A DNA stretch of 64,000 bases, taken from contig CAIRAW010000075.1 in the NCBI GenBank assembly GCA_903876735.1, positions 62,001-126,000 of the forward strand. Reading direction: 5' to 3'. Below, piece by piece: positions 29,946 to 39,479 of this stretch. The stretch is from an uncultured beta proteobacterium (GTDB lineage Bacteria > Pseudomonadota > Gammaproteobacteria > Burkholderiales > Burkholderiaceae_C). A program made the position numbers and the translations under genes. Under the pieces are notes generated by a model. It was not told the origin of the DNA. It was given only the letters and a program-made list of their open reading frames with translations, and ran no database searches. Every line of letters starts with the position of its first letter. The first letter of the stretch is position 1.

Positions 29946-30464
29946 TCAGGCTGGCTTGGCCGCGCGCCGGCGTGATTCCAGATGCCGGCGGCAACTGGCA
30001 TTGATGACGCGCAACTCGGCCAGCGTGGCGTCGATCTGGGCGCGCTTTTGCTCCAGGTCGGCAATCTCGGTATCGGTGCGATCAATCACGTAGCGCAACT
30101 GTTCGGCCCGGCCTTCGCCGTGATCGCCATAGAGGTCGAGGTAGCGTTTGATTTCGGACAGTGGTGAGCCGATGTCCTTGGCCCGCAGAATCAGGGCCAG
30201 ACGGGCGCGGTCGCGCCGCGTGTAGACGCGCGCACCGTTGACCCGTCGCGGCGCCAGCAGGCCCTTGTCTTCGTAGAAGCGCAGGGCGCGCAAGCTGATG
30301 CCGAACTCCTTGCACAGTTCGGTAATGCCAAACAATTCCGTTGTGCCCAGATCCTTGTGCGCATCGACCACGGCCTGCGCCTCGCTGGTGCTGGTGGCAC
30401 TGGCAGACATGCCGGCCTTGCGCCGCGGCACGCGCGCTTGGGCGGTCGAGGTGCTGGTCGCCAT
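29946..30464 (-). CDS. MerR-family transcriptional regulator (LiuR-like)
   Basis: DNA-binding regulator of 172 residues. After a Ser/Thr/Ala-rich N-terminal stretch, the MerR winged helix lies at about 44-115: FGITELCKEFGISLRALRFY, EDKGLLAPRRVNGARVYTRR. A dimerising coiled-coil follows (about 120-160). There is no cysteine pair for metal sensing. Its gene is 23 bases downstream of the SCP2 gene on the same strand and faces away from the carboxylase operon. In proteobacteria LiuR-type MerR proteins control leucine/isovalerate and acyclic-terpene catabolism, so regulation of that operon through the palindrome at 30893 is the natural inference. Confidence 0.88.
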   Translation of the reverse strand: MATSTSTAQARVPRRKAGMSASATSTSEAQAVVDAHKDLGTTELFGITELCKEFGISLRALRFYEDKGLLAPRRVNGARVYTRRDRARLALILRAKDIGSPLSEIKRYLDLYGDHGEGRAEQLRYVIDRTDTEIADLEQKRAQIDATLAELRVINASCRRHLESRRRAAKPA

Positions 30465-30487: not shown

Positions 30488-30784
30488 TCAGATGACGCGC
30501 TGCAGACGCATGGCAACGCTCATGTCACCCGTGACCTTGAGCTTGCCCATCATGAAGCCGGTGGCGGGTTCCAGATCGCCGGTGATCATGGCATTGAGAT
30601 TCTCCAGCGTGATGCCCACGGTGCAATCGGCGTCGCCGTTACTGTTGCTCACCGAGTTCGGTGTCGACTTGCCGTCGATGTAGACGGTGCCGTCGGCGCC
30701 GCAGTCAAACTTGAGGGTGGCATTCAGGCCGCTGTCACTGCCGACTTTGGTGCGGATGGCTTCGGTGCAGGCTTCGAGGTTCAT
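30488..30784 (-). CDS. SCP2 sterol-binding domain protein
   Basis: A 98-residue protein made of a single SCP2-like lipid-binding domain (LKFDCGADGTVYIDGK, DCTVGITLENLNAMITGDLE, FMMGKLKVTGDM). The ATG at 30784 has AAGGA upstream; the frame is open farther back but those codons cross the promoter. SCP2 proteins carry hydrophobic acyl chains or acyl-CoA. Co-transcription with the MerR regulator and divergence from the acyl-CoA carboxylase operon fit a role in handling long or branched acyl-CoA intermediates. Confidence 0.9.
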   Translation of the reverse strand: MNLEACTEAIRTKVGSDSGLNATLKFDCGADGTVYIDGKSTPNSVSNSNGDADCTVGITLENLNAMITGDLEPATGFMMGKLKVTGDMSVAMRLQRVI

Positions 30785-30892: not shown

Positions 30893-30906
30893 TGACGTTA
30901 ACGTCA
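30893..30906. promoter_or_regulatory. LiuR-type operator candidate
   Basis: TGACGTTAACGTCA is a perfect 14-bp palindrome between the SCP2-merR genes and the carboxylase operon, 40 bases before the operon's first ATG. It closely resembles the reconstructed binding motif reported for LiuR-type MerR regulators in beta- and gammaproteobacteria. The palindrome is seen directly; the regulator match is inference from recalled motif and context. Confidence 0.65.
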
Positions 30907-30946: not shown

Positions 30947-32557
30947 ATGCCAGTTCTGCGTTCAAAGATCAAGATCAAAACCGATTCGTTTGCCGCCAAC
31001 GCGCAGCGCATGCTTGAACTGCTGTCTGAAGTGCAGCGCCTGGAGCAGATGGTGATTGCCGAATCCGAGTCCAAGCGCGCCAAGTTCGAATCCCGGGGCC
31101 AACTGCTGCCACGTGAGCGCGTGGCGCGCCTGCTGGACCGGGGCTCTGCGTTTCTGGAACTCAGCCGCCTGGCGGGTCTGAACATGCACGATGACGATGG
31201 CAAGAAGACGGTGCTGGGCGGCGGCTCCATCGTCGGCATCGGCGTGGTGGCCGGCAAGCGTTGCCTGATTTCCGCCAGCGACAGCGCGGTCAAGGGCGGC
31301 ACCATAGCGCCCATGGGTCTGCGCAAGGCGCTGCGCGCGCAGGAGATTGCGCGCGAGAACAAATTGCCGCTGATCTATCTGGTTGAAAGTGGCGGCGCGA
31401 ATCTGATGTACCAAAGTGAAATCTTCATCGAAGGCGGGCGCAGCTTTGCGAATCAGGCGCGCATGTCGGCCGCCGGTTTGCCGCAGATCGCCGTCGTCCA
31501 CGGTTCGTCGACCGCAGGTGGTGCCTACCTGCCGGGCCTGTCTGACTACGTGATCCTGGTGCGCGGTCGCTCCAACATCTTTCTGGCCGGCCCGCCGCTG
31601 GTCAAAGCGGCCATTGGCGAGGACTGCACCGAAGACGAGATCGGCGGCGCAGAAACCCACGCCCAGGTGACCGGTCTGGGCGAGTACCTGTGTGAGGACG
31701 ACGCCCATGCCATTGGCATGGCGCGCGAGGTGATGGACAAACTCAACTGGGACCAGACTGCGGCCGCGTCCAGCTTTGCAGAGCCTTTGTTTGACGAGCA
31801 GGAATTGCTGGGTCTGGTGCCGGCAGACGAGCGTCAGCCTTACGATGTGCGCGAGGTCATCGCGCGGCTCGTCGATGGTTCCGACTTTCTGGAATTCAAG
31901 GCCGAGTACGCAGCGGAGACGATGTGTGGGCACGCCCGCATCCAGGGCCGGTTGGTCGGGATTTTGGGCAATAACGGCCCGATCCAGCCCAGCGGTTCCA
32001 CCAAGGCTGGCCAGTTCATCCAGCTCTGCGATCAAAGCGCAACGCCGCTGATTTTTCTGCAAAACACGACCGGCTACATGGTGGGCTCGGTGGCCGAGCG
32101 CAGCGGCGCCATCAAGCATGGCTCCAAGATGATCCAGGCGGTGGCCAATGCGCGCGTGCCCAAGTTCACCATCGTGCTCGGTGGCTCGTATGGCGCTGGC
32201 AACTACGGCATGTGCGGGCGCGGTTTCGATCCGAACTTCATCTTCTCGTGGCCGACCGCGCGCACGGCGGTGATGGGCGGCGCGCAGGCGGCCAAGGTGA
32301 TGGACATCCTGAACCGCGCCAAGATCGAACGCAGCGGCATGGCTGCCAACGAGGACGCCCTCAAAGCCATGTCAGACGGCCTGCGCCTGCGCCTGGACAA
32401 GGAGTCGGCAGCACTGTTTGGCACGGCACGCTTGTGGGACGACGGCATCATCGACCCGCGCGACACGCGCCGCCTGCTTGGCCTGTGCCTGGCCATAGCC
32501 GAGGAAGCGCGGCAGCGCAAGCTCAACGCCAATACCTTTGGCGTGGCGCGGATGTAG
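30947..32557 (+). CDS. Acyl-CoA carboxylase carboxyltransferase (beta) subunit, geranyl-CoA (AtuC)-like
   Basis: Biotin-dependent carboxyltransferase of 536 residues with paired crotonase-like domains (about 30-270 and 280-530). Conserved segments include GGTIAPMGLRKALRAQEIA, VHGSSTAGGAYLPGLSDY and GGSYGAGNYGMCGRGFDPNF. It would transfer CO2 from biotin to a beta-methyl-branched enoyl-CoA. At residues 160-170 it reads FIEGGRSFANQ, where methylcrotonyl-CoA carboxylases have an FGRIFFNQ-like pattern. Gly163 lies where a Phe-to-Gly change is reported to separate methylcrotonyl- from geranyl-CoA carboxylases (alignment by eye). First gene of a five-gene operon; its partner alpha subunit is the fourth. 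Confidence 0.9.
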   Translation: MPVLRSKIKIKTDSFAANAQRMLELLSEVQRLEQMVIAESESKRAKFESRGQLLPRERVARLLDRGSAFLELSRLAGLNMHDDDGKKTVLGGGSIVGIGVVAGKRCLISASDSAVKGGTIAPMGLRKALRAQEIARENKLPLIYLVESGGANLMYQSEIFIEGGRSFANQARMSAAGLPQIAVVHGSSTAGGAYLPGLSDYVILVRGRSNIFLAGPPLVKAAIGEDCTEDEIGGAETHAQVTGLGEYLCEDDAHAIGMAREVMDKLNWDQTAAASSFAEPLFDEQELLGLVPADERQPYDVREVIARLVDGSDFLEFKAEYAAETMCGHARIQGRLVGILGNNGPIQPSGSTKAGQFIQLCDQSATPLIFLQNTTGYMVGSVAERSGAIKHGSKMIQAVANARVPKFTIVLGGSYGAGNYGMCGRGFDPNFIFSWPTARTAVMGGAQAAKVMDILNRAKIERSGMAANEDALKAMSDGLRLRLDKESAALFGTARLWDDGIIDPRDTRRLLGLCLAIAEEARQRKLNANTFGVARM

Positions 32558-32583
32558 ATGCAATGGAATACGGACCCTGATTT

Positions 32584-32652
32584 GTCATTGCGGGCCCCGA
32601 CCCGCAATCCATGCGACAGAAGGCATGGATGCCGGATCAAGTCCGGCATGAC
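32584..32652. repeat. REP-like palindromic element, copy B (two facing units)
   Basis: Two hairpins of the same family as copy A sit head to head between the carboxyltransferase and acyl-CoA dehydrogenase genes. ATTGCGGG/CCCGCAAT lies at 32587-32608 and ATGCCGG/CCGGCAT at 32629-32649, bounded by GTCAT and ATGAC. The element is inside an operon and could stabilise or divide its transcript. Confidence 0.8.
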
Positions 32653-32706
32653 AAGGAAGATGGATTGCGTTTGCCATCCAATTTTGAATTCACCTGAAAG
32701 GCTGCT

Positions 32707-33858
32707 ATGAAATTCACCCCGGAACACGAACAGATCGCCGACACCGTGCGCAAGTTTGTTGCCAAGGAAATCAACCCCTTTGTTGCCGAGTGGGAGGCGG
32801 CCGGGATCTTTCCGGCGCATGCCTTGTTCAAGAAGTTGGGCGACCTCGGGCTGCTGGGCATCAAGTACCCGGTGGAGTACGGCGGCATGGGGCTGGACTT
32901 CAGCTACTCGATGGTGATGGCCGAGGCGCTGGGCGAGTGCAACGGCGGCGGCGTGCCGATGGCCATCGGCGTGCACACCGATATGTGCACGCCAGCGCTG
33001 GCGCGCTTTGGCTCGGACGAACTCAAGCGCGAGTTTCTGGCGCCCAGCATTGCCGGCGACGTGGTTGGCTGCATCGGCGTCAGCGAGGTCGGTGGCGGCT
33101 CCGACGTGGCCGCAGTCAAGACCACGGCGCGCAAGGATGGTGGCGACTACCTCATCAACGGCTCCAAGATGTGGATCACCAACGGCATGCAGGCAGACTG
33201 GTGCTGTCTGCTGGCCAACACATCGGAGGGACCGGTGCACAAGAACAAGTCGCTGATCATCGTGCCAATGGACGCCGCCGGCATCACGCGCCAGAAGATC
33301 GACAAGATCGGCATGCATTCGTCGGACACGGCGCAACTGTTTTTTGACAACGTGCGCGTGCCACAGCGCAACCTGATCGGGCAGGAGGGCATCGGCTTCA
33401 TGCTGCAGATGCTGCAGTTCCAGGAGGAACGGCTCTACGGTGCCGCTGGCACGCTGCGTTCGCTCGATCGGCAGATTGACCAGACCATTGCGTACACGCG
33501 CCAGCGAAAGACTTTTGGCAAGCCGATTCTGGACAACCAGGTGGTTCATTTCAGGATGGCCGAATTGCGCACCGAAGTCGAAGCGCTGCGCGCCTTGACC
33601 TACCGCGCAGTCGAGTCCTACATCTCGGGCAAGGATGTCACCAAGCTGGCCTCCATGGCAAAACTCAAGGCCGGGCGCCTGAGTCGCGAGGTGGCCGACA
33701 GTTGCCTGCAGTACTGGGGCGGCATGGGCTTTACGGCCGACAACCCGATTTCGCAGGCCTTCCGCGACAGCCGCTTGATCTCGATTGGCGGCGGCGCCGA
33801 CGAAATCATGCTGGGCATCATCTGCAAGCTCGAAGGCACCTTGCCCGGCAAGGCCTGA
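32707..33858 (+). CDS. Acyl-CoA dehydrogenase, citronellyl-CoA (AtuD)-like
   Basis: FAD enzyme of 383 residues that desaturates acyl-CoA at the alpha-beta position, passing electrons to ETF. FAD/substrate motifs include VGCIGVSEVGGGSDVAAVKT and MWITNG (about 120-160), RQRKTFGKPI and QYWGGMGF. The usual C-terminal catalytic glutamate (YEGT) is replaced by IGGGADEI. Instead Glu240/241 in FQEERLYGAAG lies where isovaleryl-type dehydrogenases place the base, which suits a branched or terpenoid substrate. AAGG-type ribosome site precedes the ATG. Second gene of the operon, downstream of a REP-like element. Citronellyl-CoA is the favoured substrate by gene order; isovaleryl-CoA is the alternative. 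Confidence 0.9.
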   Translation: MKFTPEHEQIADTVRKFVAKEINPFVAEWEAAGIFPAHALFKKLGDLGLLGIKYPVEYGGMGLDFSYSMVMAEALGECNGGGVPMAIGVHTDMCTPALARFGSDELKREFLAPSIAGDVVGCIGVSEVGGGSDVAAVKTTARKDGGDYLINGSKMWITNGMQADWCCLLANTSEGPVHKNKSLIIVPMDAAGITRQKIDKIGMHSSDTAQLFFDNVRVPQRNLIGQEGIGFMLQMLQFQEERLYGAAGTLRSLDRQIDQTIAYTRQRKTFGKPILDNQVVHFRMAELRTEVEALRALTYRAVESYISGKDVTKLASMAKLKAGRLSREVADSCLQYWGGMGFTADNPISQAFRDSRLISIGGGADEIMLGIICKLEGTLPGKA

Positions 33859-33863
33859 GGCAC

Positions 33864-34676
33864 ATGGAATTTGAAACCCTACAAGTTGAGCCCACCGGCG
33901 CGGTGCTGCGTGTCACGCTGAACCGTCCCGAGTCGCGCAACGCGATGTCGCTGCGCATGGTGAGCGAGTTGCGCGCGGCATTGCACAGCGCTGAAGCCGG
34001 TGGCGTGCGCGTGCTGGTGCTGCGCGGCGCTGGCGGGCATTTCTGTGCGGGTGCGGACCTGAAAGACATGGCGGCGGCGCGCATGCGCGCCATGCAGGGT
34101 GATGCGTCAGGCGATGCTGCGCCTGATGCGATTGCGCAGGCCAACCAACAGTTTGGCGAACTCTGCGCCGCCTATGCAAATACACCGCTGGCACTGGTGG
34201 CCTTGCTCGAAGGCACAGTGATGGGCGGCGGCTTCGGCCTGGCCTGTGTCGCCGATGTGGCGCTGGCAGCTGAGACGGCGCTGTTCCGTTTGCCCGAGAC
34301 CGCGCTTGGCGTGGTGCCGGCGCAGGTTGCGCCGTTTCTGGTGGAGCGTCTCGGTTACTCGCAAGCCAAGCGGCTCGCTGTGACGGGTGGGCGCATCACG
34401 GCCAGCGAGGCCCTGGCCATCGGCCTGGTCCATGCCGTGCACGCCAGCGACCAGTTTGACGCCGCGCTGACTGCCGTGCTGACCGACATCCTGGCTTGTG
34501 CGCCCGGCGCCATTGCCGCGACCAAGGCACTGATGGTCAAAGCGCGCCTGACGCCGCCCGCCGATCTGGTGCAGGAAGCAGCGCTGGTCTTCTCGCGCGC
34601 CGCGCAAGGACCTGAGGGAATGGAAGGCGCAGTGGCCTTTCTTCAAAAACGCAAACCGAACTGGGCCATGCCATGA
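33864..34676 (+). CDS. Enoyl-CoA hydratase/isomerase, AtuE-like
   Basis: Crotonase-fold enzyme of 270 residues that would hydrate the carboxylated enoyl-CoA. Oxyanion-hole segments are HFCAGADLKDMAAAR (about 57-71) and GTVMGGGFGLACVADVALA (about 114-132), with the LPETALGVVPAQVAPFL segment following. The stretch between the two, ARMRAMQGDASGDAAPDA, is longer than in short-chain hydratases, as in glutaconyl-CoA-type members. The ATG at 33864 comes 5 bases after the dehydrogenase stop. Its stop overlaps the next start (ATGA). Methylglutaconyl-CoA or isohexenylglutaconyl-CoA would be the substrates in liu or atu pathways. Confidence 0.9.
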   Translation: MEFETLQVEPTGAVLRVTLNRPESRNAMSLRMVSELRAALHSAEAGGVRVLVLRGAGGHFCAGADLKDMAAARMRAMQGDASGDAAPDAIAQANQQFGELCAAYANTPLALVALLEGTVMGGGFGLACVADVALAAETALFRLPETALGVVPAQVAPFLVERLGYSQAKRLAVTGGRITASEALAIGLVHAVHASDQFDAALTAVLTDILACAPGAIAATKALMVKARLTPPADLVQEAALVFSRAAQGPEGMEGAVAFLQKRKPNWAMP

Positions 34677-36637
34677 GTTTTTCCAAGATCCTGATTGCCA
34701 ATCGGGGAGAGATCGCGTGCCGCGTCATACGCACGGCGCGCAAGCTCGGCTACCAAACCGTTGCCGTCTACAGCGACGCCGATCAGGCGGCACCGCATGT
34801 GCGACTGGCCGACGAGGCGGTGCACATCGGCGCTTCGGCGGCGGCTGATTCCTACCTGAATGTGCCGTCCCTGCTGGATGCCGCGCGCAAGACCGGCGCC
34901 GACGCCGTGCACCCGGGCTACGGCTTTCTGAGCGAAAACGCCGGCTTTGCACAAGCCTGCATTGATGCCGGTCTGGTCTTCATCGGCCCGCCACCCTCGG
35001 CCATGCTGGCGATGGGCGACAAGGCGCTGGCCAAGCGCCGCATGCTGGCCGCTGGCGTGCCCTGTGCGCCCGGCTATCTGGGTGAGGAACAGGACGATGC
35101 GACGCTGACGCAGGAAGCGCTGAAGCTGGGCTTTCCGCTGCTGGTCAAGGCCGTGGCCGGTGGCGGCGGGCGCGGCATGCGGCTGGTGCGCTCGGCCGAT
35201 GAGATCGCGCCGGCACTGGCCGGGGCCCGGCGCGAGGCGCAAAGCGCATTCGCGGACGGCACGCTGATGCTCGAGCGCCTGATTGATGACGGCCGGCATA
35301 TCGAGATCCAGATCTTTGCCGACGCCCATGGCAACGCCATCTACCTGGGCGAGCGCGACTGCACGGCGCAGCGCCGCCGGCAAAAGGTGATCGAGGAAGC
35401 GCCTTCACCGGTGGTCAATGCCGGCATGCGCGAGGCCATGGGCCGCGACGCCGTGGCCGCCGCGCTGGCGGTCGGCTACCGCGGCGCGGGAACGGTGGAG
35501 TTCATCGTCGACGGTGCGCTCAAGCACTACTTTCTGGAGATGAACACAAGGCTGCAGGTTGAGCATCCGGTGACCGAAATGGTGACCGGCTTCGATCTGG
35601 TGGAGTGGCAACTGATGATCGCGGCGGGTTTGCCGCTGCCGGTGGCGCAGGATGAAGTGCGGATCACGGGCCACGCGATCGAGGCGCGCCTTTACGTGGA
35701 AGACCCCTACGCCGGTTTTGCACCGCAGACCGGCAGCGTGCGCTGCTGGCGGCCGCAGCAGGCTTTGCTCGAGGGCGTGCGCATTGACCACGGCATCGAG
35801 GAGGGCAGCGAGGTCTCGCCGTTTTACGATCCGATGGTGGCCAAGTTCATCGCGTACGGCCGCGACCGCGACGACGCGATCCGGCGCCTGCGCGCGGCGC
35901 TGGCCAACGCGCCGCTGCTGGGCCTGCGCAACAACGCTCGCTTTCTGTCCGACCTGCTGAACCACCCGGCGTTTCGCACGGCAAGCATGACGACCACGCT
36001 GATCGACCAGTGGCAGGAGCGCTTTGATCCGCTGCTGCAGCGCCCGCTGCCGGACGACGCAAGCTGGTGCCTGGCGGCTGCAGCCTTTGCCTTGCAGAAC
36101 GGTGCCAACTGGCGCGCGGACAGTGTGGCGGCGTTTGATATTCCCCTGCGCTGTGACGAGGACCTGCGCAGTCTGCGCGTGCAGCCGGATCGCATCGGTC
36201 AGGTGAAGGTCACGCTGGGTGGGCAGACGCACCGCGTGCGCATTCTTCATTTTGACGCCGGTGAAATGCAGTACGAAGTCGACGGTGTTACCCGGCGCGC
36301 CGCTGCCGTGATGCAGCAGCATGAACTGCACCTGGCCCTGGGCGCGGCCACCTTTGTCTTCACCGAGGTTTCGCCTTTTCCCGACAAGAGCGCCCTGCAG
36401 GACGCGACGCGCGCGCGCTCGCCGGTGGCGGGCAAGGTCACGCAGATTCTGCTGACGGTCGGTGACCGGGTGCAGGAGGGCCAGGCCCTGCTGTGCGTCG
36501 AAGCCATGAAGATGGAGATGTGGCTCTCTGCCCAGACTGCGGGCACGGTGAGCGCGGTGCACGCGCAGGTTGGCGAACAGGTTGAATCGGGCGCCGTGCT
36601 GGTTGAAATTGAACTCGATGCGAAAAAGGAAACGTGA
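34673..36637 (+). CDS. Acyl-CoA carboxylase biotin carboxylase/carrier (alpha) subunit, AtuF/LiuD-like
   Basis: ATP-dependent biotin carboxylase fused to a biotin carrier, 654 residues. It begins FSKILIANRGEIACRVIRTA, has the ATP-grasp loop KAVAGGGGRGMRLVR (about 157-171) and FLEMNTRLQVEHPVTEMVTG (about 288-307). The C-terminal biotinyl domain carries the AMKM biotinylation site with Lys at about 613. A central BT-like linker region (about 470-570) joins it to the beta subunit, as in methylcrotonyl/geranyl-CoA carboxylases. Start overlaps the hydratase stop (ATGA), and its TGA overlaps the next ATG by one base. It forms the holoenzyme with the first gene of the operon. Confidence 0.92.
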   Translation: MSFSKILIANRGEIACRVIRTARKLGYQTVAVYSDADQAAPHVRLADEAVHIGASAAADSYLNVPSLLDAARKTGADAVHPGYGFLSENAGFAQACIDAGLVFIGPPPSAMLAMGDKALAKRRMLAAGVPCAPGYLGEEQDDATLTQEALKLGFPLLVKAVAGGGGRGMRLVRSADEIAPALAGARREAQSAFADGTLMLERLIDDGRHIEIQIFADAHGNAIYLGERDCTAQRRRQKVIEEAPSPVVNAGMREAMGRDAVAAALAVGYRGAGTVEFIVDGALKHYFLEMNTRLQVEHPVTEMVTGFDLVEWQLMIAAGLPLPVAQDEVRITGHAIEARLYVEDPYAGFAPQTGSVRCWRPQQALLEGVRIDHGIEEGSEVSPFYDPMVAKFIAYGRDRDDAIRRLRAALANAPLLGLRNNARFLSDLLNHPAFRTASMTTTLIDQWQERFDPLLQRPLPDDASWCLAAAAFALQNGANWRADSVAAFDIPLRCDEDLRSLRVQPDRIGQVKVTLGGQTHRVRILHFDAGEMQYEVDGVTRRAAAVMQQHELHLALGAATFVFTEVSPFPDKSALQDATRARSPVAGKVTQILLTVGDRVQEGQALLCVEAMKMEMWLSAQTAGTVSAVHAQVGEQVESGAVLVEIELDAKKET

Positions 36638-37524
36638 TGGACAAAGCCATTCTGACCTGCGCCCTGACTGGCGTTTTGACCAACCCCAAGCAGCATCCGG
36701 TGCCGGTGACGCCGGCCCAGATGGCACAGGAGGCGCGTGATGCCTTCAACGCAGGCGCCTCCATCATGCATGTGCACCTGCGCATGCAGGAGGAGGGCCT
36801 GGGCCATATGCCATCGTGGGACCCGGATGTGGCGGATGCGGTGGTCAGCGCCATCCGGGCTGCTTGTCCTGGTGTCATCATCAACCTCACCACTGGCGTT
36901 ATCGGCAAGGACATCTCAGGGCCGCTGGCCTGCATCCGGCGTGTCAGGCCCGAGATTGCGGCCTGCAATGCCGGCAGCCTGAACTACCTCAAGATCAAGG
37001 ACGACGGCCAATGGGCCTGGCCGCCGATGGTGTTCGACAACCCGGTCGCCAAGGTGCAGCAGTTTCTCGATGTGATGCAGGAATGCCAGGTGCACCCGGA
37101 GTTCGAATGCTTCGATGTCGGCATCGTGCGCTCGGTCGGCATGTTTCTCAAGAGCGGCATGCTCAAAGCCGACATGGGCCGCGCCGAATACAACCTGGTG
37201 ATGGGGGTCGCTTCCGGCATGCCGTGCGACGCCGATCTGCTGGCGCTGATTCCGCGCTGGATGGCACAGGGCAGTGTCTGGCAGGCGACCCTGATCGGGC
37301 GCAGCGAAATCTGGCCGGTGCACCAGAAGACAGCCGAACTCGGTGGCATGCTGCGCACCGGTCTTGAAGACACGTTCTATTTGCCCAATGGCGACAAGGC
37401 CAGTGGCAACGGGGCGCTGATCACCGCACTGGCCGACTGTGCAAACAGGGCAGGGCGCGCTGTGGCGAGTCCGGCCGAGGCGCGGGCTCTGCTGGGTCTG
37501 CGGGAGGCTACTCAGGTCCGCTGA
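36637..37524 (+). CDS. 3-keto-5-aminohexanoate cleavage-type enzyme (BKACE, DUF849)
   Basis: Beta-keto acid cleavage enzyme of 295 residues. The TIM-barrel BKACE family condenses a beta-keto acid with acetyl-CoA to give acetoacetate and a new acyl-CoA. The zinc-binding HVH motif is at residues 45-47 (MHVHLR), and the family segments NLTTGVIGKD and the GLED motif near residue 245 are present. AAGGA precedes the ATG, which overlaps the alpha-subunit stop (TGATG). As the last gene of the operon it may process a beta-keto acid produced by the lyase step of the pathway. Its substrate cannot be told from sequence alone. Confidence 0.9.
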   Translation: MDKAILTCALTGVLTNPKQHPVPVTPAQMAQEARDAFNAGASIMHVHLRMQEEGLGHMPSWDPDVADAVVSAIRAACPGVIINLTTGVIGKDISGPLACIRRVRPEIAACNAGSLNYLKIKDDGQWAWPPMVFDNPVAKVQQFLDVMQECQVHPEFECFDVGIVRSVGMFLKSGMLKADMGRAEYNLVMGVASGMPCDADLLALIPRWMAQGSVWQATLIGRSEIWPVHQKTAELGGMLRTGLEDTFYLPNGDKASGNGALITALADCANRAGRAVASPAEARALLGLREATQVR

Positions 37525-37658: not shown

Positions 37659-39479
37659 TTACTTGCAGCCATAGTTACAGAAAGTCGGGAACAGTGTCTG
37701 CAACTTCTGCGCCATCGCTGGCGTCAGTTTCTTGAAAAGCTCCGCGTTGTAAGACCCGCCGGGCATGCGGTGGATGCTGGCGTCGCCGGTGGGGTTGACG
37801 TCTTCAATGGCATCAGCACCCTTGACGATTTGCGTCGCCGCAATGGCGTAGGAACGCGATTTTGCGGCAGGGGTTCCGTTCTGAATCGCCGGGTCGACAT
37901 CGGTGGCGACGATCGAGAGGGTGCTGTCGGCGTTCCAGTAAATCTCGAAGGTGCGGAACTGCTGCGGGAAATCCCGCAAAGATGGCGTTTCAACCTGCCA
38001 GAAGCTGTTTTCAGCTTGCGGCGCCACAAAGGCCTTGACGACATTGACATGCCGATGCCCTGACAGCCACAGCAGCAAATTCGGATGCCTGTGCAGTTCT
38101 GAAATCAGGTCGGGCAGACTGACCGCGTTTTGCACGGGCGCTTTGGCGTCCGGGTTGACCCACCAACCCATCGGACTCGTTTTACCTGCGGGAGGGGGAT
38201 TGGTCTCGTCAACGGCCAGGGGGATGTGCGCCGCAATGATCATGAGCTGACCCGCAGCGTCGCCTGCGGCCAGTTCGGCCTTGAGCCAGCTCCAGCGCGG
38301 CAGGTCCAGAAAACCATGACCATGAACATCGCTGGAGCCGTCGTCGTCGCGCTGGGTGTTGTCGAGCACGATCATCTTGAGCGGCAGATTGGCCTTGGGC
38401 AAAAAGCTGTAGCATGCAAACCCGGCCTTGGCATCGGTCAGGTTGAAACCGTGTCCGACCGGGCTGGAGGATGTCTTGAAAAATTCCGCCATCCACTGAT
38501 CGCGGTTGATGGCCCGGCGGTCCTTGTCGACAACCACGGTGGGCGGCCCCGCCGGAAACTTTTCCTTCGGGCCTGCGCACTTGATGTCACCATTGGGGGT
38601 CGAGCCATCGATCACGCCCATGAAAGCGAGTGGTTTATTGATCGCTGTGGGATCTGTCAGGATGTTGCCAGTCGCAAAGACTTTGTCGCTGGTGTAGGTA
38701 TCGCGCAAGTCGGGTCGCAAAGGAGTATCCAGAGGGATCGAACCCATCCAGAAGTGATCGTGGTTACCCAGGGTCTGGTACCAGGGAATCGCCTTGTTCA
38801 ACCCGGCTGCCTGGTAGGGCTTCTGGTAGTCGATGCGGTCGGAGCCCAGGCGAGCACCAGAACTCGGGTTAATGAGCTTGCCGTCGAGCACGTCGATGTA
38901 CCAGCGCAACTCGTTGTACTGGGAACTGTTGCAGCAGTCGCCCAGAGAGAGGCCAAAATCAATCGGGCTTTTGGCGTGCAAGGCGTTGACGGTCTGGATT
39001 GCCGCGTCCAGCACATGCGTGGTGCACATCATTACAGGTGAATACATCGAAGCCGAAAACGGACTGACGGCTTCAGTCTGCAGTCCCAGGTAGATTAACT
39101 GATTGGGAGATTCCTTGTCGGTGATGTGAATGTCACTGATGGTGAAGAAACTCAGCAGCTTGGCTTTTTGACTGGCGCCGGAAACCTCATACCCAGCGGG
39201 CATCAGATCCGTGCGTTTTTCCGCCGCCAATGGCGCGCCAAGTGTCCAGTTGCCATAGCCATATTGTCGGAATGTGGCCACTTCGTAGAGATGGGCAGCT
39301 TTTGCTGGCTTTGCCCCCCGCACGACCGTATTCTGGAGCGTTGTAAAAACCTCCGAAGCGATGGCATAGCCCGCACTAGAGCCTTGCACACCACCAGCGC
39401 TGCCAGCCGTGGCCGGGCCACTGGCGAGCGGCACGGTTGTGAAGATCGAATACTTGAGGAAATCACGACGATCAAACAT
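37659..39479 (-). CDS. Tat-exported metallophosphoesterase (TIGR03768-like)
   Basis: Calcineurin-like phosphoesterase of 606 residues. The N-terminus MFDRRDFLKYSIFTTVPLAS is a twin-arginine signal (RRDFLK). Metal-binding blocks are all visible: SDIHITD (about 116), LSLGDCCNSSQYNE (about 178), TLGNHDHFW (about 238), IIAAHIPL (about 415) and LSGHRHVNVV (about 477). The protein is longer than small cytosolic members and fits the TIGR03768 group of exported phosphoesterases. A weak AGGAG (GAGAATTTTCC region) precedes the ATG. It stands alone. Substrate (phosphodiester, phospholipid or nucleotide) is unknown. Confidence 0.9.
   Translation of the reverse strand: MFDRRDFLKYSIFTTVPLASGPATAGSAGGVQGSSAGYAIASEVFTTLQNTVVRGAKPAKAAHLYEVATFRQYGYGNWTLGAPLAAEKRTDLMPAGYEVSGASQKAKLLSFFTISDIHITDKESPNQLIYLGLQTEAVSPFSASMYSPVMMCTTHVLDAAIQTVNALHAKSPIDFGLSLGDCCNSSQYNELRWYIDVLDGKLINPSSGARLGSDRIDYQKPYQAAGLNKAIPWYQTLGNHDHFWMGSIPLDTPLRPDLRDTYTSDKVFATGNILTDPTAINKPLAFMGVIDGSTPNGDIKCAGPKEKFPAGPPTVVVDKDRRAINRDQWMAEFFKTSSSPVGHGFNLTDAKAGFACYSFLPKANLPLKMIVLDNTQRDDDGSSDVHGHGFLDLPRWSWLKAELAAGDAAGQLMIIAAHIPLAVDETNPPPAGKTSPMGWWVNPDAKAPVQNAVSLPDLISELHRHPNLLLWLSGHRHVNVVKAFVAPQAENSFWQVETPSLRDFPQQFRTFEIYWNADSTLSIVATDVDPAIQNGTPAAKSRSYAIAATQIVKGADAIEDVNPTGDASIHRMPGGSYNAELFKKLTPAMAQKLQTLFPTFCNYGCK

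Follow-up and report, generated by a model that had tools for sequence, protein, structure and literature searches.

The closest described relatives of the operon reported here are the atuRABCDEFGH operon of Pseudomonas, which serves the degradation of acyclic terpenes, the liu operon of leucine degradation and, for its last gene, the beta-keto acid cleavage enzyme (BKACE) family (DUF849, PF05853), which includes Kce (2Y7D/2Y7F). The operon lies in a 64,000-nucleotide stretch of DNA (the window) from an uncultured beta proteobacterium of the Burkholderiaceae_C (assembly GCA_903876735.1, contig CAIRAW010000075.1, positions 62,001 to 126,000). Its genome (3.9 Mb, 82 contigs, 97.8% complete) is called G000 below and the contig of the window C75; other genomes, contigs and loci carry our G, C and L handles likewise. 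In the window an atuCDEF-like gene set is followed by a BKACE gene, in a genome where we detect no AtuA, and on sequence comparison we favour, with some reserve, the reading that this is an operon for acyclic isoprenoid (geranyl-CoA-type) degradation with BKACE in AtuA's place. The swapped final enzyme points to a possible second way of finishing the acyclic terpene pathway.

In the portions of the literature available to us, one paper names AtuA and another LiuE as the enzyme that performs the cleavage in acyclic terpene degradation, and BKACEs are described as converting a beta-keto acid and acetyl-CoA to acetoacetate and an acyl-CoA. Further background was drawn from the accessible parts of PMC4847356, PMC4097962, PMC9636800, PMC12133276, PMC6365646, PMC4922564, PMC12016498, PMC7238569 and PMC8637051. 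Among the matches listed in a literature search for which subscription papers were mostly beyond reach, no paper joined BKACE with geranyl-CoA carboxylase and none dealt with BKACEs and terpenes together by its terms; 3-keto-5-aminohexanoate cleavage together with terpene brought up only a cattle gut metagenome study.

Organization of the operon

By ORF list and Pfam, five open reading frames (ORFs) lie on the same strand at 30947-37524:

30947-32557, plus strand: predicted geranyl-CoA-carboxylase-type beta subunit, atuC-like (Carboxyl_trans; comparison with geranyl-CoA carboxylase)
32707-33858, plus strand: acyl-CoA dehydrogenase, atuD-like (Acyl-CoA_dh)
33864-34676, plus strand: enoyl-CoA hydratase, predicted isohexenylglutaconyl-CoA hydratase (AtuE) type (ECH_1; PDB matches); the ORF as listed opens earlier, at TTG 33702
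34673-36637, plus strand: biotin carboxylase/carrier alpha subunit, atuF-like (biotin carboxylase and biotin-lipoyl domains)
36634-37524, plus strand: BKACE, WAWPP-insert subfamily (PF05853; ATG 36637 is an alternative start)

A preliminary description of this DNA had read the order of the first four genes as atuCDEF, placed a BKACE at the end and noted that the window holds no lyase gene. The order matches that of the Pseudomonas locus, the last ORF matches PF05853 with 278 bits (cut-off 24.8; E 9.6e-83), and a PF00682 profile search found zero genes resembling 3-hydroxy-3-methylglutaryl-CoA (HMG-CoA) lyase on the whole of contig C75. The operon further resembles Pseudomonas atu in its geranyl-CoA-carboxylase-type beta subunit and AtuE-type hydratase. 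It differs in lacking atuA and an atuB-like gene, in ending with BKACE, and in having MerR and SCP2 genes rather than the TetR regulator AtuR. The cluster is conserved in Burkholderiales, Alphaproteobacteria and Myxococcota and is thus not a chance arrangement.

Carboxylase, dehydrogenase and hydratase

The beta subunit scores 721 bits against the geranyl-CoA carboxylase (GCC) beta subunit of P. aeruginosa and 521 bits against 3-methylcrotonyl-CoA carboxylase (MCC) beta. As described in the available text of PMC4673880, GCC beta has a Gly where MCC beta has a Phe, and lacks the three-residue insertion found just before it. The active-site stretch reads EGGRSFANQ in the window, EGARGFANQ in P. 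aeruginosa GCC beta and HFGRIFFNQ, with the insert, in P. aeruginosa MCC beta; in the alignment the window protein has both marks of GCC, Gly for the MCC active-site Phe and no insertion, which bears out the earlier use of GGRSFANQ versus FGRIFFNQ as a sign of the geranyl-CoA type. By alignment, it would also have the extended N-terminal helix that sets GCC and MCC apart from propionyl-CoA carboxylase, as its match to GCC beta starts at residue 2. Among 79 related beta subunits (80 beta loci minus L035, whose ORF runs off its contig), none has the insertion and visual reading finds the Gly in 77, the other two having Ala (L052) and Ser (L088). The beta subunit of the Thauera linaloolentis 47Lol atu pathway (L083) likewise has the Gly and no insert; that genome differs from ours in carrying AtuA away from beta, with no BKACE near beta. 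On these residues the carboxylase is very probably of the geranyl-CoA type.

Homologues of the dehydrogenase (68-73% identity) occupy the atuD position in Pseudomonas and Marinobacter loci. The best PDB matches of the hydratase are 4K3W (248 bits) and 4ZU2 (244 bits), the third reaching only 126 bits, and 4ZU2 is annotated as a putative isohexenylglutaconyl-CoA hydratase. Against an AtuE-type assignment, the protein scores 144 bits with the NCBIfam model for gamma-carboxygeranoyl-CoA hydratase (NF004227), whose cut-off is 426. The best PDB match of the alpha subunit is an MCC alpha. Six proteins were compared with NCBIfam, and among the matches listed no model reached its curated cut-off.

AtuA and BKACE in related loci

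AtuA (family PF07287) was sought in the 80 beta loci by tblastn with one AtuA query. It was present in 34 loci and a BKACE of the window type in 26; no locus had both, and 20 had neither. In seven of the last group (L019, L022, L028, L035, L038, L040 and L072) the contig stops near beta. AtuA lies about 9 kb from beta in L037 and L046, and the AtuA of L088 is only distantly related (34% identity). At the genome level, 50 of the 80 genomes, hand-chosen, were searched. Outside the window clade 49 loci lack BKACE, and the 19 genomes drawn from these all had AtuA. It was also found in one of five genomes with a truncated window-clade locus, and strongly in five and weakly in two of 26 BKACE-linked genomes, being absent from the other 19. 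The same AtuA model, which matched in 27 of these 50 genomes, found no AtuA in G000, where a canonical atu system would have one. Supply of AtuA in trans was considered and set aside on these counts.

The clearest single case of exchange is L128, from the gammaproteobacterium G1004, where an atu operon is matched gene for gene except that BKACE stands in the place of atuA: a TetR gene is followed by BKACE, a short-chain dehydrogenase/reductase (SDR), beta, dehydrogenase, hydratase, alpha and another SDR. Apart from BKACE, all seven genes have counterparts in the same order in Pseudomonas L042 (38-66% identity), which has AtuA next to TetR. No AtuA was found within the 19.9 kb of L128; the rest of G1004 was not searched. 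On a beta tree of 99 rows, labelled by hand as 42 BKACE, 35 AtuA and 22 neither, AtuA and BKACE switch in at least six steps, or five when four long or odd rows are removed.

Because the two enzymes never occur together in 80 loci, exchange several times on the tree and swap one slot in L128, BKACE probably does AtuA's job, and we hold it to be a functional substitute with good confidence. A repeated exchange of AtuA for an enzyme family whose chemistry is understood makes the question of AtuA or LiuE as the cleaving enzyme directly testable, indicates which class of natural substrates this BKACE subfamily is likely to act on, and offers a way to spot the pathway in bacteria without AtuA.

AtuA family members also stand away from GCC-type carboxylases (L109-L114); as the one at L111 adjoins another alpha and beta pair, the family may have other roles. 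No window-type beta was found near the five strong AtuAs of BKACE-linked genomes.

Linkage of BKACE to the carboxylase

BKACE stands at the operon end in Burkholderiales, some Alphaproteobacteria and Myxococcota, and upstream of beta in Bradyrhizobium-type loci. A search anchored on BKACE (E <= 1e-70) in overlapping sets of 274 class, 399 order and 398 phylum genomes gave 16 genomes besides our own, with a carboxylase beta within 10 kb in 15 of them, or six of seven by genus; one genus supplies nine of the 16, and G722 is the genome of L092, already in the beta-anchored set. As a control, the 274 class genomes yielded 45 BKACE matches, three of them of the window type, with betas taken at E <= 1e-130. 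None of the 42 BKACEs of other types shared a contig with a listed beta; the informative part of this count is 0 of 32, since ten of the 42 sit in genomes without a listed beta. Of the three window-type matches, two lie beside a beta; the third, on contig C43 of G000, shares its contig with a beta at a distance of about 34 kb. That BKACE belongs to the operon, as judged from this conserved association, is well supported.

An ordinary leucine or branched-acid operon, with BKACE as a promiscuous neighbour unrelated to AtuA, would account for the locus differently. BKACEs are described, in the text available, as promiscuous and as serving several pathways, and a MerR regulator is typical of liu operons too (LiuR); the reaction types are the same and, as proposed here, so is an HMG-CoA-type lyase step. 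The window has neither the Phe- and insert-bearing beta of a liu MCC nor an HMG-CoA lyase in the operon, however, and the organism's own liu-type genes, an MCC with the Phe signature together with LiuE, are separate, on C62. As the association of BKACE with the carboxylase also holds across phyla against a control of 0 of 42, we consider a leucine operon very improbable.

G000 has two BKACEs beyond that of the window, on C43 and C1. Contig C43 carries a second GCC-like carboxylase operon (L014 7256-12848) and a BKACE (L015 6439-7308) of the Bradyrhizobium-linked type, which adjoins an acyl-CoA-ligase-like gene and shares 72-75% identity with Bradyrhizobium-type BKACEs, as against 61% with the BKACE of the window. 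Both this operon and this BKACE belong to the Bradyrhizobium-type clade, so the two would pair with each other. The nearest relatives of the L014 operon, L066 and L068, carry AtuA.

A mirror-tree comparison of beta with BKACE (r 0.92 over 33 loci) was judged weak and not used, since vertical inheritance is enough to produce such a correlation and the divergent L140 may drive it. At L140 (G087 C5), in a genome of 1.5 Mb, a divergent BKACE (52%) is accompanied by a dehydrogenase and by a distantly related carboxylase beta (43%). L130 and L133 (G722 and G769) hold carboxylase, ligase, hydratase and BKACE genes, with no HMG-CoA lyase over the cut-off. In the window-type BKACE of L127 (G827 C11), alone among 42, the WAWPP insert reads WAWSP. 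A glutathione-S-transferase-like gene occurs in 21 of the 42 BKACE loci (L074, L076, L082, L129-L139 and others), mostly of the Bradyrhizobium type.

The BKACE subfamily

Four NCBIfam models for BKACE match the window protein, each with a score below its cut-off. Positions 46, 48, 143, 226, 230 and 231 of Kce, which we take to be the metal and catalytic positions, are kept in all 28 aligned subfamily members, and Glu14 of Kce is replaced by Leu in all 28. An AlphaFold model has a pLDDT (predicted local distance difference test) score of 85.6 overall and of 67-68 in the blocks at residues 111-130, around the insert; in Foldseek, DUF849/Kce structures match it best, which supports the fold only. 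By family score, fold and metal and catalytic residues the protein is a BKACE, with cleavage activity predicted. The subfamily differs from Kce in the Leu, in the WAWPP insert, present in 41 of 42 members, and in its association with carboxylase operons. We infer that the Leu and the insert would fit a hydrophobic substrate.

Proposed route and the lyase step

By family, the dehydrogenase would make a 3-methyl-2-enoyl-CoA, the carboxylase would then carboxylate its methyl branch, and the hydratase would add water to give a 3-hydroxy-3-alkylglutaryl-CoA. A lyase of the HMG-CoA type whose gene lies outside the operon, either LiuE from the leucine operon or a paralogue of it, may then cut this product, releasing acetyl-CoA together with a branched beta-keto acid in free form. 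BKACE would use exactly these two compounds to form acetoacetate and an acyl-CoA of shorter chain, which would go on to beta-oxidation. By our own reckoning this would spare about one ATP equivalent, because acetoacetate rather than acetate is released. Lyase-type cleavage followed by BKACE, as suggested in the preliminary description, fits the chemistry of both enzyme families, and we incline to a separate lyase plus BKACE as the mechanism.

The same route may act on a longer isoprenoid than geranyl-CoA, or on another 3-methyl-branched acyl-CoA (for example from farnesol or phytol), in place of a C10 monoterpene, which is compatible with the proposal above. The SCP2 lipid-binding gene adjoining the operon would suit such a substrate, as would the absence, from the window and its two nearest loci, L019 and L020, of the AtuB-like dehydrogenase gene found in 13 of 42 BKACE loci. 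The window beta bears the published GCC marks, however, and AtuC of T. linaloolentis, seen by proteomics on linalool according to the available text, is in the same Gly-bearing group. A longer substrate is possible, if somewhat doubtful.

Four matches to PF00682 were found in G000 (two on C14, one each on C62 and C30), and HMG-CoA lyase is present in two copies. The second HMG-CoA-lyase-like gene is:

C30:12555-13520 (L017 6553-7521), minus strand: 40% identity to LiuE

This gene was considered as a dedicated lyase for BKACE and rejected. Across the 80 beta loci and the loci of G000 it matched only itself, LiuE and L085, and L085 carries no BKACE; in 51 genomes its closest relatives occur both with and without BKACE, and it is therefore no marker of the pathway.

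Across genomes, an HMG-CoA lyase scoring above the curated cut-off was present under 29 of 35 handles of BKACE-linked genomes and in 16 of 19 comparison genomes; the survey covered these 35 handles and left out seven further beta-linked genomes of the BKACE-anchored set. The enzyme is thus usual, not universal, among BKACE-linked genomes. An HMG-CoA-lyase-type enzyme might do the cleaving in both versions of the pathway, with AtuA not a lyase and AtuA and BKACE alternative handlers of the free beta-keto acid; this agrees with our proposal on BKACE and differs on AtuA. The mutual exclusion of AtuA and BKACE would follow from it, and the accessible text of a review citing Chavez-Aviles 2010 gives the lyase reaction to LiuE, where that of another paper gives it to AtuA. 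Against it, the three comparison genomes without HMG-CoA lyase over the cut-off (G040, G041 and G044) all bear AtuA, and our searches brought up no AtuA structure or activity; AtuA had no match in the PDB and so no relative of solved structure. We regard this alternative as rather unlikely.

Several observations tell against a separate lyase followed by BKACE in AtuA's place. HMG-CoA lyase is absent from G722 (the same genome as G029, and so two of the six misses) and from G769, both scored 100% complete and two species of one genus; none was found in G002 or G021, and G024 has a fragment. Because one BKACE genus (G722/G769) lacks it, the lyase step is the weak link of the model. Only 18 of 42 BKACE loci yielded a hydratase of one type or the other, so this step as well is often encoded elsewhere or undetected. 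L127 has no beta within 10 kb of its BKACE, and no AtuA or BKACE lies close to the second GCC-type operon of G000 (L014). A full AtuA lies elsewhere in five of the 26 BKACE-linked genomes and a weak match in two; one of these AtuAs, at L111, stands beside another alpha and beta (42% identity). A phylogenetic sign test on the labelled rows gave four independent pairs, all opposite (p 0.125, not significant), an outcome fixed by construction, since a labelled row is either AtuA or BKACE; with unlabelled rows there were nine pairs (on average 2.6 opposite, none the same way and 6.4 with no difference), again not significant.

The genus with carboxylase and BKACE and without HMG-CoA lyase would be explained if BKACE itself cleaved 3-hydroxy-3-alkylglutaryl-CoA at its metal site and also transferred the acyl group onto CoA there, within one pocket, with no separate lyase. 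The one-for-one exchange with AtuA in L128 and L042 also favours this, as AtuA is named an acetate lyase in the available text of one paper, and one metal enzyme would then replace AtuA outright. Yet the catalytic residues of known BKACEs are unchanged here, known BKACEs use beta-keto acids and acetyl-CoA as far as the accessible sources describe them, and most BKACE-linked genomes have HMG-CoA lyase. We think BKACE an improbable lyase and retain a separate lyase plus BKACE as the preferred route.

Regulator and neighbouring features

Upstream of the operon lie the following features:

29946-30464, minus strand: MerR-family regulator, divergent from the operon (PF13411 and PF09278)
30488-30784, minus strand: SCP2 sterol-transfer-domain protein of about 98 amino acids (PF02036, E 3.1e-16; start picked by eye)
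30893-30906, no strand: perfect palindrome TGACGTTAACGTCA (motif scan)

A homologue of the MerR regulator is present in 10 of the 42 BKACE loci, and one of the SCP2 gene, which sits between the MerR gene and beta, in 11. At two or fewer mismatches the only match to TGACGTTAACGTCA in the window is the palindrome itself (0.08 expected), and a similar site with no or one mismatch occurs in 13 of 32 loci scanned. The palindrome is likely the operator of the MerR regulator, a putative assignment. Promoter and terminator scans did no better than on shuffled sequence. Facing the operon is an ORF (37659-39479, minus strand) that by eye looks metallophosphatase-like, with an N-terminus resembling a twin-arginine signal.

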